This document shows positions 465 through 8,972 of a DNA stretch of 64,000 nucleotides, piece after piece. Each line of letters opens with the position of its first letter. The stretch's first letter is position 1. Source of the stretch: Thioclava dalianensis (GTDB taxonomy: Bacteria; Pseudomonadota; Alphaproteobacteria; Rhodobacterales; Rhodobacteraceae); NCBI RefSeq assembly GCF_000715505.1, contig NZ_JHEH01000009.1, forward strand, positions 1-64,000, read 5' to 3'. Under the pieces are notes generated by a model, which was given only the letters and a program-made list of their open reading frames with translations, did not search any database and had not been told where the DNA came from. The position numbers and the translations under genes were made by a program.

Positions 465-1571
465 CTATTGCGTTAAATTTTTTTGAAAGAAATTTCGCGC
501 CACCTCATCCCTAAGAATTGGGAGATGTTTGCCAAGCTGTGGGAGGATGACCTCTGTTGCTTCGCTATAGTGAATTGGTTGACATTCCCTGACTTTTTCA
601 AAGTCCGAAAAAAACGGTCCGGATCGAATGGTTGTGCCAAGAAAGTCGTGGATAGGAGCGAATCGATCATACATTTCTAAGCGTGCCTTTTCACCAATGA
701 GCTCAATTTGTGAGCTTTTCGGTAATTCTAGAGCGGGTGTGATCAATTCCAAGAAGTTTCGCGCCTTCACAGCGCTCTCAGGTGGTAGATCTTTATTCGC
801 TCTTCGCGCTAGCTCAAATGTCGCTCGATGGTAGCTCGGGTTGGCAATGCTCGGTGGTTTCATGTTGTCCGGATAAATTAATCCAGATTGGACTTTGAAA
901 TCTTCGATTGAACCTCCATTCATCATGACGTCAGCATGATTTCGAATTACAAAATTCGCTTCGGGAAATGCATCTATCCAAGGCTTTATCATCCTTTGGT
1001 AATTAAAGTGAATTCCGTCGAAATAGGTTTCAAGTCCACCTTGGTCGAGAGGAGCTAATTTATGGCCGAAGCGTAACCTTTGCGAGTGCCAAGACATGAG
1101 ATACTCGTCGACCCTTCGGATCGTTGCGATGAATTGAAACTCTGCACGAGGGAATTCCTTTTTTAGCCTTTGAAAAAATGAAGAAGTGATGGTGCCGAAG
1201 TTTGCCATAACTTCTGAAATAAGTACCACATGATCAGGATTTATCGCATTGATCTGACAACGTATTGCATGAAACATCTGAGAGGTATGAGGAAGGTGCG
1301 TATGAAACGGCGGGACGGGGCTATTCCGATGCTCTTCTATCATTTTGAAGGCGAGGGCGTTATGGGCCTCGCGCGCGTTTATGGGCAGGCGCACATCGTC
1401 GCTTTCAGGCCTCAATGTTGCACATTTGGCCAACATTAAGGAGAGTCCTTGAAAATCTACCATCGGATAGAGGATTTTTTTATCAAGTAGTGATTGGAAG
1501 TTTTTAGAAAAGAAATCCTGAAGTGCCGTTGAGCCTACTTTGTGATGGCCAAAAAAAACTATTATCTTCAT
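465..1571 (-). CDS. Sulfotransferase family protein (likely polysaccharide or lipid sulfation)
   Basis: The 368-residue protein starts MKIIVFFGHHKVGST. The KVGST element matches the 5'-phosphosulfate-binding loop of PAPS-dependent sulfotransferases, and a later stretch (FIATIRRVDEYLMSW) resembles the 3'-phosphate-binding segment. Sulfotransferases of this type move sulfate from PAPS to a hydroxyl of a sugar or lipid. The ATG at 1571 was chosen because the conserved core begins there and GGAG lies 11 bases upstream; the frame stays open for 15 codons further upstream without family similarity. The gene is AT-richer than the housekeeping genes and lies among glycan genes beside a transposase relic, which suggests horizontal transfer. 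The acceptor is unknown. Confidence 0.75.
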   Translation of the reverse strand: MKIIVFFGHHKVGSTALQDFFSKNFQSLLDKKILYPMVDFQGLSLMLAKCATLRPESDDVRLPINAREAHNALAFKMIEEHRNSPVPPFHTHLPHTSQMFHAIRCQINAINPDHVVLISEVMANFGTITSSFFQRLKKEFPRAEFQFIATIRRVDEYLMSWHSQRLRFGHKLAPLDQGGLETYFDGIHFNYQRMIKPWIDAFPEANFVIRNHADVMMNGGSIEDFKVQSGLIYPDNMKPPSIANPSYHRATFELARRANKDLPPESAVKARNFLELITPALELPKSSQIELIGEKARLEMYDRFAPIHDFLGTTIRSGPFFSDFEKVRECQPIHYSEATEVILPQLGKHLPILRDEVARNFFQKNLTQ

Positions 1572-2217: not shown

Positions 2218-2847
2218 CTACATTTCTCCGAAAACAATACGCTCAAAGCAAGCATCAAGCGCTCGCATCTTGTCAGAGGCAAGCTCTTCGACAAAGCGCG
2301 CGGTTTTACTCTCCTTACGCAACTTCTCGGACTGCTCGAGACTAACCTCGCGCGACCATCCACCACCGGGCCCCAAGTTCTTCAGGATCGTACGGTTCGC
2401 GGCTTCTTCGTTGTGCAGAAGATAAGTTCGCAATTCTTCACGTTCATAGTTGGGCATCGACACCTTCTGAGCAGCCTCGATGAACTCAAAGCTATTCTCA
2501 TGCAATGTGGGTGATATTACTCCAAGGTACTCTGGATTGACGATCGCCGAAAAGGTCATCATTGGAAACGCTGAACTGCCATATGAAATCGATGCTATGG
2601 ATTTGTAAGGTCTTTCGGCGACAAGCGCGGCCGCCTTGGAAATCTCCTCTAAGCCTGACCAAGGAGAGTTTTGAACGTAGATAAAATAGACGTCGCACCT
2701 TGCCGTGCTTAAGAGCTTTCTGCGGCGATACCAATGAGGATCCTCCTCAAAAAATACTACGCATTCTTCACTCATGGGGGTGGTAGGGTACGAAAGATTG
2801 ACAGTTTGAGAAAATTTTTCGATCTTAATAGTCTCGGTTTCAGACAT
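2218..2847 (-). CDS. Unknown protein of glycan island; weak alpha/beta-hydrolase-like motif
   Basis: The 209-residue protein is not a family I recognise. The central part, roughly residues 70-110 (KSIASISYGSSAFPMM followed by VISPTLH), resembles the strand-nucleophile-helix region of alpha/beta hydrolases such as glycan acyl-esterases, but the match is weak and no catalytic triad can be named. There is no signal peptide or membrane segment. Its ATG overlaps the end of the upstream glycosyltransferase-sulfotransferase gene by 8 bases, so the two are probably translated together. The stop lies at the edge of the transposase relic, so the C-terminus may have been shortened by that insertion. Confidence 0.5.
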   Translation of the reverse strand: MSETETIKIEKFSQTVNLSYPTTPMSEECVVFFEEDPHWYRRRKLLSTARCDVYFIYVQNSPWSGLEEISKAAALVAERPYKSIASISYGSSAFPMMTFSAIVNPEYLGVISPTLHENSFEFIEAAQKVSMPNYEREELRTYLLHNEEAANRTILKNLGPGGGWSREVSLEQSEKLRKESKTARFVEELASDKMRALDACFERIVFGEM

Positions 2848-4393
2848 TGCCGTCTTCCTCTCTCAATCTGGCCAACTCCGAAACAAGATAGCCCGGAGAC
2901 GCTGAATATATTGGGTATTCAATAAGTCTCAATTTTCTTTCCCTAGCTTCTCTCTTTACGTTGTGCCAATGGTCGTCCCATTGCTGGCGCCAAAAATTCT
3001 TGACCTCTTCGTCGGACGACATTTGGTGAAAATCCCTAGCCTCTGCAAGGTACTTTCCGCGGCGAAACTTAGACCTGCTATTAATCCAGTCCTCTACAGG
3101 TCGATAGTTCAGTAGAAAGATGGATTCTGGAAAGTGCTCAATAATATAGCTGAAATCTAAAAATCCGTCATATACAATCTTTGGGCCCGACACACTGATG
3201 TCGCTAATTACCTCATAGTGCGAATACTCATCAAAGGGTTTTGCGCCGGACGCCTTCGCATCATACAGCGCCTTCGCCAAGTGCCCTTCATCCCAATGGC
3301 AAAAACTGTATCCAGCGCGAGAAAGCTCTGCACAAATTTCTTTCGATCCCGCACGATTCATTCCGATTTGAAAAACCTTGTCTCTCTCTCGAACAATCGC
3401 GCCAGAGGGTTGCGACAAGTGTAAGAAAGCTACTTTCTTTTCGTAGGGCTTTACATGCTCTCTGATCTTCTTTGAGAACTTTAGATCGATATCGATTATT
3501 AAATCCATATGCCGAAGCTCGGTCAGCGCGGTATCGCTCAAAACGCTTGTACTGAGAAAGAATGACTGCGCACCTTCTTCTCCGCTCTCTTTCCGGGCTC
3601 TGTCGTAGGCAAGGAAAGGCGCTTGTGCCTGTTCCTTTAGACTATCCATGTACTCCTTTGAACTAAGACGTCGCTCGAATTTCTTCCTGAAATCTTCAAA
3701 GGAACTAGGAAAGCTGTGCAGGAGAACTGCTTGCTCTTGTGGTACGACGAATGTCGGCACCATCGTGCCGTTGGAGCGGACGAAGTGAACGTTAAAAACT
3801 GCCGCTCCGACACTGGAGGCTCTTTGAAAAGATTTTCCGACTTCGTGACCCAAGAATCCTGAGGGGAAGAGCTCTGACATCTCGCGGAAGAGCACCCGCG
3901 AAAATTCGGATCGGTTCTTGGCCTTTAGCTTGAAAATTCCATCGCATTGCAAACTGCCCCTCACAGGAGCTGCTTTAAAGATATGCTCGGCTGGGAGCAC
4001 ACGGACCGCATTGAACTCATCGGGCGTGTCGGCGAGCATCTCAGAAATGCTCTGAGCGTTTCGTGGGAACAGGTACTCATCGGTGTCGATATTGGCGAGC
4101 CAATCGCTAGTCAGCAAGTTGCGCGCCGCGTAGTTGGCGTTGTAAATTTGTCTTTGGCGATGATCAGATGGTCTGCCGCCCTTTCGAGCCCGCCAATAGG
4201 CCTCGTCGCAGGGCACTACCGTCAACCTTGGTACCCGCGATAGGCGCTCTATCGCTAAGTCCGTCGGGTTGTCGAAGAAAAGAAAAATCTCCTTAACCTC
4301 GAGAGACAGGTGATGGGCGACGAAACGCTCGATAACAGATTTCGGCTCGGAACAGGTGGTGACTATTGACCAAGTTGGACATTTATCGTTCAC
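2840..4393 (-). CDS. Two-domain protein: family 2-type glycosyltransferase fused to sulfotransferase-like domain
   Basis: The 517-residue protein starts at GTG, with GGAGG six bases upstream. Residues 1 to about 240 look like a GT2-type glycosyltransferase: WSIVTTCSEP at the N-terminus, then LANIDTDEYLF carrying the DxD metal and nucleotide-sugar site. From about residue 310 a second domain starts with VFQIGMNRAGSKEICAEL, close to the P-loop of small bacterial sulfotransferases (IGxNKTGT), and continues with FLLNYRPVEDWINSRSKF, like their 3'-phosphate region. The fusion could add a sugar and sulfate the product. The loop has RAGS rather than KTGT, so PAPS binding by the second domain is not certain. 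It lies in an AT-richer island and overlaps the next gene. Confidence 0.7.
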   Translation of the reverse strand: MNDKCPTWSIVTTCSEPKSVIERFVAHHLSLEVKEIFLFFDNPTDLAIERLSRVPRLTVVPCDEAYWRARKGGRPSDHRQRQIYNANYAARNLLTSDWLANIDTDEYLFPRNAQSISEMLADTPDEFNAVRVLPAEHIFKAAPVRGSLQCDGIFKLKAKNRSEFSRVLFREMSELFPSGFLGHEVGKSFQRASSVGAAVFNVHFVRSNGTMVPTFVVPQEQAVLLHSFPSSFEDFRKKFERRLSSKEYMDSLKEQAQAPFLAYDRARKESGEEGAQSFFLSTSVLSDTALTELRHMDLIIDIDLKFSKKIREHVKPYEKKVAFLHLSQPSGAIVRERDKVFQIGMNRAGSKEICAELSRAGYSFCHWDEGHLAKALYDAKASGAKPFDEYSHYEVISDISVSGPKIVYDGFLDFSYIIEHFPESIFLLNYRPVEDWINSRSKFRRGKYLAEARDFHQMSSDEEVKNFWRQQWDDHWHNVKREARERKLRLIEYPIYSASPGYLVSELARLREEDGNV

Positions 4394-5719: not shown

Positions 5720-6559
5720 TTATCTCGGCAGGCGGATTGGGGTGTCCTTGGCCAGCCGGTCGAACTCCATAAGGGTCTGCACGAGCTTGGGCATCTGATC
5801 GAGCGGGATCATGTTGGGGCCGTCGGAGGGCGCAGTGTCGGGGGCTTCATGCGTCTCGATGAAGACGCCCGCAATCCCGAGGCTGACCGCACAGCGCGCC
5901 ATCACGGGCGCAAATTCGCGTTGGCCACCCGAGGAGCCGCCCTGACCGCCGGGTTGCTGCACCGAGTGGGTGGCATCCATGATCACCGGATAGCCGGTGC
6001 GCGCCATCTCGGGCAGGGCGCGCATATCGGCGACCAGCGTGTTGTAGCCAAATGAGGTGCCCCGCTCCGTCAGGAGAATCTTTTCATTGCCCGTGGAGGC
6101 GACCTTGTCGGCGACATTGGGCATGTCCCAAGGTGCCAAGAACTGACCTTTCTTGATGTTCACGACACAGCCGGTCTCGCCCGCGGCCAGCAGCAGATCC
6201 GTCTGGCGGCACAGGAAAGCCGGGATCTGGATCACGTCGACGACCGCGCCTGCGATCCGCGCCTGCTCTGCATCGTGGATATCGGTAAGCACGGGACAGC
6301 CGATCTCGGCGCGCACTTCCTGCAAGATCGCCAGCCCCTCATCAATGCCAAGGCCGCGCTTGCCCTTGAGGCTCGTGCGGTTGGCCTTGTCATAGCTGGC
6401 CTTGAAGATGAACTGGGCGCCGGCCTCATCGCAGGCGCGTGCCATCTTCTCGGCGATCATCATTGCGTGGTCGCGGCTCTCAAGCTGGCAGGGGCCCGCG
6501 ATCACGCTCAGCGCGCGGTCATTCGAGACGGTCAGCTCACCGATCTGCACATCTTTCAT
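5720..6559 (-). CDS. kdsA: 3-deoxy-8-phosphooctulonate (Kdo-8-P) synthase
   Basis: This enzyme condenses arabinose 5-phosphate with phosphoenolpyruvate to Kdo-8-phosphate, the precursor of Kdo for lipopolysaccharide and for the lipid anchor of group-2-type capsules. The 279-residue sequence shows the family blocks IAGPCQLESRDHA, FKASYDKANRTS, LLTERGTSFGYN, PVIMDATHSVQQPGG and IETHEAPDTAPSDGPNM. A Cys in the GPC motif (residue 24) replaces the Asn of the E. coli enzyme, which points to the metal-dependent class. The ATG at 6559 is preferred over the one at 6565 because AGGAG lies six bases before it. It is 27 bases downstream of kpsE on the same strand, so Kdo supply is probably tied to capsule export. 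Confidence 0.93.
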   Translation of the reverse strand: MKDVQIGELTVSNDRALSVIAGPCQLESRDHAMMIAEKMARACDEAGAQFIFKASYDKANRTSLKGKRGLGIDEGLAILQEVRAEIGCPVLTDIHDAEQARIAGAVVDVIQIPAFLCRQTDLLLAAGETGCVVNIKKGQFLAPWDMPNVADKVASTGNEKILLTERGTSFGYNTLVADMRALPEMARTGYPVIMDATHSVQQPGGQGGSSGGQREFAPVMARCAVSLGIAGVFIETHEAPDTAPSDGPNMIPLDQMPKLVQTLMEFDRLAKDTPIRLPR

Positions 6560-6586
6560 CGTCATCTCCTCAGGCTTTGGGGACGC

Positions 6587-8335
6587 TCAGCTCGAGACCT
6601 GCTCGCGCAGGATCGAGGCGGTGAGCGACAGCATGAGATAGATGCCCGAGAAGATCAGGAAAGCCAACAGCGTGTTCTCGAAGGAGCGCGGATAGGTCGG
6701 CTCGTCCGGGGCCACGGGGCGCACACCCATCTCCAGATAGCGCACCTGTTTGTTGGCCTCGATCCGGGCGGTCTCCATCTGCTGGGCGGCTGCCGACATC
6801 AGCATCTGGCGGGTCTGCAATTCGCCTTGCGCGATCTGCAACTGCCCCGTCACGGCGGCCAGAGACTCGTTGCCGTTCTTGGTCGTGCTCGTGAGCTGGC
6901 TGCGCGTCTTGTCCACCATGTCCTGAAGGCGTTTGATATCGCCCTGAACGCCGGTCACGCGGGCTTGGTTGGGACGCGGGTTGTCGAGCAACTGGCCCAG
7001 TTCGAGGCGTTTTTGCTGCAGCTGCGTCTCTAGCGACGAGACCTGCCCCATCACCACGGAGCTTTCGCTGACCGGATCGAGAATGCCGACCTTCTCTTGC
7101 AGTTGCTGCACGCGGGCTTGGGCTGCAAAGACCTTTCTTTCGGCGTCCTCGTAGCTCTCGCGGGCGCCTTTCATCTGATCGTCGCGCAGACGCGAGGTCA
7201 GCTGGTCCACCTGTTTCTCGGCATAGGAAATCAGCGACTCGGAGAATTTCTGCGACAGCGCTGGCGTCGGGGCAACGACCTCCATTTTCACGATGCCCTC
7301 GGAGGGATCGTAGCCGATCTGGACCATTTTTTGATAGAGCTGGTAGGCCTGCTCGTCGCTTGCGTTTTTCGGCAGGCGCTGCAGCGGGTCGATATCGGGG
7401 TTCTCGAACACTGTCTTGAAGCCCACATCCCGGTCGAGCCGGAGCATCGCGTCACGCGATTGCAGATAGGACTGAACGGTGACGGAATCCTGGTTGGTGG
7501 CAAGCTGGGTGCCCGAAAACAGGCTGCCAAGCCCAGATTGCCCCATGCCTTCAGCCTTCTGGATCACGAAGGCGGATTTCGTCGCATACATCGGCGTGGC
7601 CATCGCGTAATAGTAATAGGCCGCGATCAGCGTGGGCAGGAAGACGAAGAAGGCCAGCCGCGTTGCCAGCAGCAAAAGCTTGCGGCGGCGGCGCTTGGCG
7701 ATATCGGTCTGGATCTGCAAGATCTGCGCTGCCCGATGGTCCGCTTGGGCCAGTTCGGTCGAGGGGACTTGGCCGGGCTTGACGGTCTGGGGCAGCTGGA
7801 CCCGCGCATCCGCACCCGCGCCATCGGTACGGGCCAAGGCCCGCGAGGTCACTTCAGCGGGGTCTTGGGCCTTCACCATCGCCACGATATTGGAGCGCTC
7901 GAACGGGTTGACCCCACGGCGGCGCAGCAACAGCACGGCTTCGAAATCCGAAGTGGCCTCGATCCCGTGTTTCTGCGCCATCCGGCGGGCCAGCCGCAAC
8001 TGGCGCCCGGTCAGCCCTTCGGCGCGGATCTCGGAAATTTCTTCGTCGAGCGTCTTCTCGCCCTTTGCCAGCACCTTCGTGCCGCCTTGCGCGGTGGCGA
8101 ATTTCTCGTCGCCAAAGCCGTCATCCTGCGGCTCGAACAGCTGCTCGGGATTTTGCTCGACGCTTTTGGCCACGGTCTGCTCTTGGGCGCGGGGCTGAGC
8201 GGCGGCAGGGGCTTTGCGTGTTTGGCCCGCGCTCTGGGCAGCATTGCGCGGGGCAGGCACGATTGCCTTGCCATCGAAGAGAACCGGAGCCTCGCGGCGG
8301 ATGCGATATTTCTGCGCCTTAGGACTGGTAGTCAT
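6587..8335 (-). CDS. kpsE: Capsule polysaccharide export inner-membrane protein (KpsE/Wzz-type)
   Basis: KpsE-type proteins are periplasmic co-polymerase/adaptor proteins that link the KpsMT ABC exporter to the outer-membrane pore. The 582-residue protein has a long polar, Ala/Gln-rich N-terminal region of about 230 residues, a membrane segment (LATRLAFFVFLPTLIAAYYY), a long periplasmic coiled-coil part (residues about 390-530, rich in Q, E, R and L) and a C-terminal membrane segment (LAFLIFSGIYLMLSL). The N-terminal extension is much longer than in E. coli KpsE but is common in related bacteria. The ATG at 8335 (MTTSPKAQ) overlaps the end of kpsT by 17 bases, indicating coupling. The frame stays open upstream, but only as a shadow of kpsT. 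Confidence 0.85.
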   Translation of the reverse strand: MTTSPKAQKYRIRREAPVLFDGKAIVPAPRNAAQSAGQTRKAPAAAQPRAQEQTVAKSVEQNPEQLFEPQDDGFGDEKFATAQGGTKVLAKGEKTLDEEISEIRAEGLTGRQLRLARRMAQKHGIEATSDFEAVLLLRRRGVNPFERSNIVAMVKAQDPAEVTSRALARTDGAGADARVQLPQTVKPGQVPSTELAQADHRAAQILQIQTDIAKRRRRKLLLLATRLAFFVFLPTLIAAYYYYAMATPMYATKSAFVIQKAEGMGQSGLGSLFSGTQLATNQDSVTVQSYLQSRDAMLRLDRDVGFKTVFENPDIDPLQRLPKNASDEQAYQLYQKMVQIGYDPSEGIVKMEVVAPTPALSQKFSESLISYAEKQVDQLTSRLRDDQMKGARESYEDAERKVFAAQARVQQLQEKVGILDPVSESSVVMGQVSSLETQLQQKRLELGQLLDNPRPNQARVTGVQGDIKRLQDMVDKTRSQLTSTTKNGNESLAAVTGQLQIAQGELQTRQMLMSAAAQQMETARIEANKQVRYLEMGVRPVAPDEPTYPRSFENTLLAFLIFSGIYLMLSLTASILREQVSS

Positions 8336-8972
8336 ACATCCGCTTCGCTTCTTCCAAAGTGTCAAACATGTGGAGCTGCCCATCGCGCAGCACCGCCGCC
8401 GTGCGGCAGAACTTCTCCAGCGTGGCAGGCTGGTGCGAGACCACGACGACCGTGGTGTTGCGCAGCCGGTCGCGTAGGATCGAGCCTGCCTTGCGGTTAA
8501 ACTCCACATCCGTGGTCGAGGGCATCCCCTCGTCGATCAGGTAGATGTCAAATTCGAGCGCAAGCAGCAACGAAAACGTGAATCTTGCGCGCATTCCCGA
8601 GCTGTAAGTGCCCACAGGTATGTCGAAATATTCGTCGATCCCCGTGAGCCAGCGGCAAAATGCCTCGACATAGTCGGGATCGAGCCCGTAGAGCCGCGCG
8701 ATGAAGCGCGCATTCTCGCGCGCCGAATGCTTGCTGACCACGCCGCCCATGAAGCCCAGAGGAAACGAGACCCGGCAGGTCTTGCGGATCTCGCCCTCAT
8801 CGGGCTTCTCCAACCCGGCCATCATGTTGATAATCGTGGTTTTTCCGGTGCCGTTGGGGGCAAGAATCCCCAGAGAATTGCCCAATTCCACGCGAAAGCT
8901 TGCGCGATCAAGGATCACCTTGCGCTGCTTGCCGGTCCAAAAGGACTTTGACACATTCTCAAACTCTAGCAT
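8319..8972 (-). CDS. kpsT: Capsule polysaccharide ABC exporter ATP-binding protein
   Basis: The 217-residue ATPase has Walker A GILAPNGTGKTT near residue 40, an ABC signature SSGMRARF, and Walker B IYLIDEGMPS followed by the switch histidine in VVVSHQP. This is the KpsT type that powers export of finished capsule chains across the inner membrane. It is the first gene of the minus-strand run kpsT-kpsE-kdsA. Its membrane partner KpsM is normally adjacent; here the upstream neighbour is an unrelated plus-strand gene, so KpsM must be elsewhere or lost. Confidence 0.9.
   Translation of the reverse strand: MLEFENVSKSFWTGKQRKVILDRASFRVELGNSLGILAPNGTGKTTIINMMAGLEKPDEGEIRKTCRVSFPLGFMGGVVSKHSARENARFIARLYGLDPDYVEAFCRWLTGIDEYFDIPVGTYSSGMRARFTFSLLLALEFDIYLIDEGMPSTTDVEFNRKAGSILRDRLRNTTVVVVSHQPATLEKFCRTAAVLRDGQLHMFDTLEEAKRMYDYQS

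Follow-up and report, generated by a model that had tools for sequence, protein, structure and literature searches.

A predicted glycosyltransferase-sulfotransferase fusion protein of Thioclava dalianensis and its relatives in Rhodobacterales

The window analyzed, the first 64,000 nucleotides of contig NZ_JHEH01000009.1 of Thioclava dalianensis, carries near its start a minus-strand gene (2840..4393; starting with GTG at 4393 and ending with the stop codon at 2840-2842) coding for a 517-residue protein that joins a glycosyltransferase (GT) of the GT2_4 type to a sulfotransferase (ST) domain. It is the only gene of the host genome (4.18 Mb, 98 contigs) with a match to the Sulfotransfer_4 family. 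Upstream on the same strand are located a KdsA-like gene of the DAHP-synthase family (5720-6565), a gene for an export protein of the BexC/CtrB/KpsE family (6587-8509), whose match lies under the curated cut-off, and a gene for an ABC transporter ATPase (8319-8972). These upstream genes are consistent with a capsule exported by an ABC transporter.

The next open reading frame downstream (2218..2847, minus strand) shares 8 bases with the fusion gene and encodes 209 residues; a search of 292 genomes of the order found no relative of it in any genome other than its own. Between this frame and the following gene lies a relic of an IS3-family transposase (1600-2225), broken into several frames and reaching 73% identity to copies on plasmids. 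A second low-GC gene (465..1571, minus strand) probably codes for 368 residues from an ATG at 1571; counting its own genome, relatives occur in 19 of the 149 genomes of the order that were searched. Two segments of its product, HHKVGSTAL and IRRVDEYLMS, resemble sulfotransferase motifs by eye only, and no supporting match was found in Pfam, NCBIfam or PDB. The contig begins (1-46, minus strand) inside a gene whose first residues, MRIVVIGTGYVGLVSG, look like those of UDP-glucose 6-dehydrogenase.

The frame of the fusion gene, from 4393 to 2840, contains no internal stop across its 517 residues, and the single open reading frame of the preliminary description is present at 2840-4393. The GT half (residues 1-319; 3437..4393) contains a PF13704 match over residues 17-120 and the DxD-type metal/nucleotide-sugar motif DTDE (residues 103-106; 4076..4087). 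It is followed by an in-frame junction (residues ~320-338; 3380..3436) and by the Sulfotransfer_4 domain (PF17784), residues 339-485 (2939..3379), with the Pfam match over 339-484. This domain comprises a 5'-phosphosulfate-type loop, IGMNRAGSKE (residues 343-352; 3338..3367), with R347 at the catalytic Lys/Arg position and S350 in place of Thr, and a motif of the 3'-phosphate-binding type, RPVEDWINS (residues 431-439; 3077..3103). All these features lie on the minus strand. Both domains belong to one uninterrupted frame, and the GC content by codon position shows no abrupt step at the junction. The possibility of two genes or of a frameshift artefact, which the preliminary description had named as a way to overturn its reading, is ruled out by this single frame, unbroken at the junction. 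A phage or viral origin was also rejected: the whole protein has no relatives in viral contigs, and the ST half has none in phage records. No NCBIfam family scored above cut-off for the fusion protein or for the eight relatives scanned, and a sequence search of solved structures with the fusion protein alone as query gave nothing useful.

The GT half matches Glyco_tranf_2_4 (PF13704) with 57.2 bits against a cut-off of 27.5 (E 2.4e-15), while a match to glycosyltransferase family 92 (PF01697; 20.2 bits) is under its cut-off of 23. Searched with the whole protein, 199 of the 292 genomes of the order gave matches, chiefly to the N-terminal half. Many of these relatives are stand-alone proteins of ~310-350 residues, mostly 27-33% identical to the GT half. 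The DxD-type site noticed earlier as IDTDEYL occupies residues 102-108, and its D103, D105 and E106 are invariant across 19 other GT2_4 homologues and likewise in the alignment behind the model described next. Of 35 positions that at least 90% of the 19 homologues have in common, the GT half keeps 29. A model of residues 1-319, built from 25 relatives whose rows were taken from the flanks of the 80 ST loci described below, is of moderate confidence (mean pLDDT 71.7), with low-confidence parts at residues 141-160 and beyond 283. Foldseek linked this model to GT-A enzymes, among them SunS, a mannosyltransferase and SpsA, and a GT-A fold is predicted for this half. A profile of the GT half found nothing useful among solved structures by sequence.

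The ST half matches Sulfotransfer_4 with 26.3 bits against a cut-off of 22.8 (E 7.9e-6). With residues 324-517 as query, matches were obtained in 56 of 390 genomes of the order, own genome included, and in 6 of a phylum-wide set of 398 genomes. That genomes of the same order hold stand-alone homologues of each half places the two domains of the fusion beyond chance. A full-length structure alignment misplaced GT-only rows on the ST half; it was therefore dropped, and the halves were modelled separately. The alignment for the ST half comprised 53 relatives, drawn from the 80 loci, plus the fusion's own ST domain; the remaining loci, near-copies or poor matches picked by hand, were omitted. The resulting model of residues 312-517 has a pLDDT of 89.9 and a pTM of 0.85, with residues 312-324 falling under pLDDT 50. 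Its best Foldseek matches are Schistosoma sulfotransferases and SgdX2. A structural re-ranking of 50 rows puts sulfotransferases in all of the top 19 places, with SgdX2 (8y9p; Z 12.9, rmsd 3.0, 154 aligned residues, 17% identity) at the head and Cpz8 containing bound PAP (9kf1/9kf2) at Z 12.8 (155 aligned, 16% identity). The SgdX2 and Cpz8 entries are reached by the ST-domain profile through sequence too. A P-loop fold of the nucleotide-kinase type was rejected, since the kinases in the fold lists rank beneath the sulfotransferases, the first at Z 10.4. The ST half is thus predicted to have the fold of a PAPS sulfotransferase. The two-domain reading of the preliminary description is borne out, both halves passing their Pfam cut-offs and both folds being predicted; the other fold for the second half that would have spoken against it did not appear.

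The P-loop-like IGMNRAGS noticed earlier corresponds to residues 343-350, and the stretch likened to a 3'-phosphate region to R431..S439 (residues 431-439). In the 5' PAPS loop R347, at the catalytic Lys/Arg position, and the hydroxyl residue S350 are kept, and in the 3'-phosphate site R431 and S439, eight residues apart, are intact. Position 431 is Arg in all 117 other distinct ST domains and position 439 is Ser in 108 of them, while position 350 is Thr in 103 of the 117 and Ser in none among the residues listed. Both the 5' pair (Lys/Arg and Thr/Ser) and the 3' pair (Arg and Ser) are retained in 103/117 of these domains; both are lost in nine, and the 5' pair alone in five. Further kept residues of the ST half are H366, D398, W436, W468 and H475, of which H366, D398 and H475 are conserved candidates for the catalytic base; the equivalent of a near-invariant His at position 443 is Phe.

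Conservation was scored at 21 ST positions, defined by 85% conservation among 105 domains after exclusion of 12 rows (L063, L078 and ten clade-mates). The ST half retains 17 of these positions, whereas the median relative retains 21, the four alterations being C348A, T350S, H443F and F483A. Ser, Ala and Glu thus stand at unusual places of the P-loop. The preliminary description took KTGT as the usual form of this loop, which does not hold for this family, whose pattern is IG[FL]N[KR][CT][GA]T. Its caution about the loop was nevertheless justified and reaches further, given that four of the 21 conserved positions differ. According to a review (PMC11625862), the corresponding loop of mycobacterial Stf0 contains Ala and Arg, so R347 beside A348 is not disqualifying. 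An APS kinase is encoded in the same genome, and the PAPS donor can therefore be made.

Fusion with glycosyltransferases recurs in this ST family. Of 118 distinct ST domains, 41 belong to ST-GT90 proteins; the GT2-ST order is found in the fusion protein and one other (L068, G388), the ST-GT2 order in two (L061 and L069; G002, G273), and a TPR-GT41-ST arrangement in one. The last is a 1353-codon frame of Chromohalobacter (L122:1305-5363, plus strand) comprising TPR repeats, a GT41-type glycosyltransferase and Sulfotransfer_4. A set of 59 ST proteins, comprising 58 places from the order-wide search (the fusion among them) and one from the phylum-wide set, contains 34 that stand alone, 21 ST-GT90, two ST-GT2 and two GT2-ST proteins, so that a GT domain is present in 25 of the 59, the fusion protein counted. 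A scan of species genomes, some of them shared with the 59-protein set, kept 80 loci, 27 of them GT90-fused and mostly from Paracoccus. In the fusions scanned, Pfam identified the partner as GT90 or GT2_4, two of the GT90 matches being under cut-off. Two 1019-codon ST-GT90 frames (L075:762-3818 and L083:849-3905, both minus strand) have ~440 extra N-terminal residues; Pfam names only GT90 in L075, and the extension may be partly non-coding. In a Lentisphaeria protein (L148:1686-3041, plus strand) Sulfotransfer_4 is joined to a methyltransferase domain.

Separate genes are arranged in a similar way. A GT2 gene lies within 8 kb in 16 of the 53 ST loci that are not GT90-fused and in none of the 27 that are, a difference inflated by related rows. 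One plasmid of Ruegeria carries a GT2 gene followed 12 bases later by an ST gene, in the same order as in the fusion, and a Leisingera plasmid carries two adjacent ST genes clustered with UDP-galactopyranose mutase, glycosyltransferases and an ABC transporter. A literature search on sulfotransferase/glycosyltransferase fusions and on the sulfated polysaccharides of the group found no natural GT-ST fusion, most subscription papers being outside its coverage. Each half belongs to a known family, and the GT2_4-ST combination is a new variant.

A tree of the 118 ST domains requires three changes for the GT2 fusion and two for the GT90 fusion, counts that cannot separate gains from losses; L120, scored as alone, stops close to where its contig does and could be a truncated GT90 fusion. 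The branch leading to the ST half of the fusion protein is long, at 2.18 changes per column against a median of 0.21 for end branches, and the tree does not reject this half and L068 as sisters (AU p 0.22). The GT2 half is ~30% identical to one GT2_4 subfamily, and its BLAST comparison with the GT2 halves of L068, L061 and L069 gave no significant match (E 0.017 or worse). Because these halves are unlike, the fusions are probably separate. Sequence comparison, mainly of the unlike GT halves, speaks for separate origins of the fusion protein and L068, and the joining of the ST family to unlike glycosyltransferases looks repeated and independent.

Taken together, these observations favor, with a probability of about 0.6, a bifunctional enzyme of surface-polysaccharide assembly, one that adds a sugar to a glycan and also sulfates that glycan. 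The fusion protein would be cytoplasmic. Its GT2_4 half, with a GT-A fold and DxD motif, would move a sugar from a nucleotide-sugar donor onto the growing glycan. The C-terminal half would bind PAPS, supplied through the cell's own APS kinase, via the 5' loop and the R431/S439 site for the 3'-phosphate, and pass the sulfuryl group to that glycan as well, both reactions thus taking place on one chain. We infer in this way the activity of both halves, the location of the protein, the order of the steps and the hand-over between them, along with the identity of the sugar and of the sulfated position. The earlier proposal of a single polypeptide that first transfers a sugar and afterwards sulfates it can reasonably be inferred, and it is strengthened by the recurrent GT-ST fusions and by the neighboring GT and ST genes.

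A second reading, clearly less probable and yet the most serious competitor, assigns glycosyltransferase activity to the GT half and regards the ST half as a pseudo-sulfotransferase that holds a glycan or a complex without transferring sulfate. Decay of the PAPS site is seen elsewhere in the family. The 5' pair is lost in 11 of the 41 GT90-fused ST domains, nine of which lack the 3' pair too. In one ST-GT90 clade of 12 rows (support 99/93), 11 have a decayed PAPS site when their residues are read against the conservation counts. The decayed members are L065, L070, L074, L075, L077, L078, L080, L082, L083, L088 and L089, and these 11 ST domains are apparent pseudo-sulfotransferases, judged by their residues. 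The changed P-loop residues of the fusion protein, its H443F replacement and the long branch, which could mean relaxed constraint, weigh against full confidence in sulfotransferase activity. However, R347, S350, R431 and S439 are all retained together with H366, D398, W436, W468 and H475; the 17 of 21 conserved positions kept in the fusion compare with 10 to 15 in the 11 decayed GT90-fused domains, and an Arg and an Ala likewise occur in the Stf0 loop (PMC11625862).

The composition of the locus bears on another, improbable reading, a degenerating gene of horizontal origin, in which a chance or recent fusion would lie within a low-GC island undergoing decay and selection would act on neither half in this strain. 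The two open reading frames adjoining the fusion gene have a GC content of 45-48%, against 63% for kdsA and kpsE, and the IS3 relic lies alongside, so the locus could be a recent and not necessarily useful acquisition. Among 16 Thioclava genomes the GT-ST fusion was found only in this one, a search of the 15 others being negative, and the broken frames of the relic, the orphan 209-residue frame and the contig end inside the locus agree with decay. Against this stand 517 codons without a stop and two halves that keep most family-conserved positions, including those of catalytic type. Moreover, surface-polysaccharide genes commonly have foreign composition. It is very improbable that the two domains serve different substrates (for instance, the GT a capsule and the ST some other lipid or glycan) and that fusion only co-regulates them: the GT partners vary among relatives (GT2_4 subfamilies, GT90, GT41) and the acceptor need not be of the same kind, but the repeated pairing with glycosyltransferases and the neighboring separate GT and ST genes, as in one polysaccharide cluster, make one shared glycan the simpler assumption.

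Beyond this protein, the recurrent welding of one ST family to several sugar enzymes suggests that sugar addition and sulfation of surface polysaccharides are coupled. A wider and decidedly tentative proposal, which we hold to be rather unlikely as a whole, is that Rhodobacterales repeatedly evolved one-chain "grow and sulfate" enzymes by joining one ST family to unrelated GT2_4 and GT90 partners (GT41 in Chromohalobacter). Sulfation would thereby be tied to chain elongation, perhaps through a checkpoint at which the next sugar is added only onto a sulfated chain, and the ST domain of one ST-GT90 clade, having lost PAPS binding, may now read the acceptor glycan.

Bacterial sulfated polysaccharides are little understood, and the sugar modified by a given sulfotransferase is rarely known. 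A natural fusion links the sulfotransferase to the enzyme that most likely makes the glycan it modifies, and thus predicts what the stand-alone relatives act on. Since intact ST domains occur alongside decayed ones, the family also allows active enzymes to be compared with pseudo-sulfotransferases as they exist in nature. For the production of sulfated glycans, an enzyme uniting GT and ST in one chain would be a useful component.

Among known systems, the stand-alone Sulfotransfer_4 proteins of Rhodobacterales (~205-280 residues) share a homologous domain, about 18-38% identical, and mostly the same 5' and 3' PAPS pattern, but mostly have Thr, Cys/Thr and His where the fusion has Ser, Ala and Phe. 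The stand-alone Glyco_tranf_2_4 proteins (~310-350 residues) are ~30% identical over nearly the whole GT half and have the DxD and later H/K positions in common with it; unlike the fusion protein, they have no sulfotransferase attached. SgdX2 and Cpz8 are the closest solved folds of the ST half, yet they are short single chains (195 and 212 residues), and the entry title of Cpz8 refers to caprazamycin synthesis, not to a polysaccharide. A fusion of a sulfotransferase with another glycan-modifying domain has also been reported, its partner being a deacetylase and not a glycosyltransferase. The ST-GT90 proteins of Paracoccus and relatives combine the same ST family with a glycosyltransferase, but of another family and in the reversed domain order, within ~570-620 residues (some frames being longer), and the PAPS site of one clade is mostly decayed. 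In L068, L061 and L069 a single chain likewise combines the two Pfam domains of the fusion protein, L068 alone also in the same order, although their GT2 halves show no significant BLAST match to that of the fusion protein.
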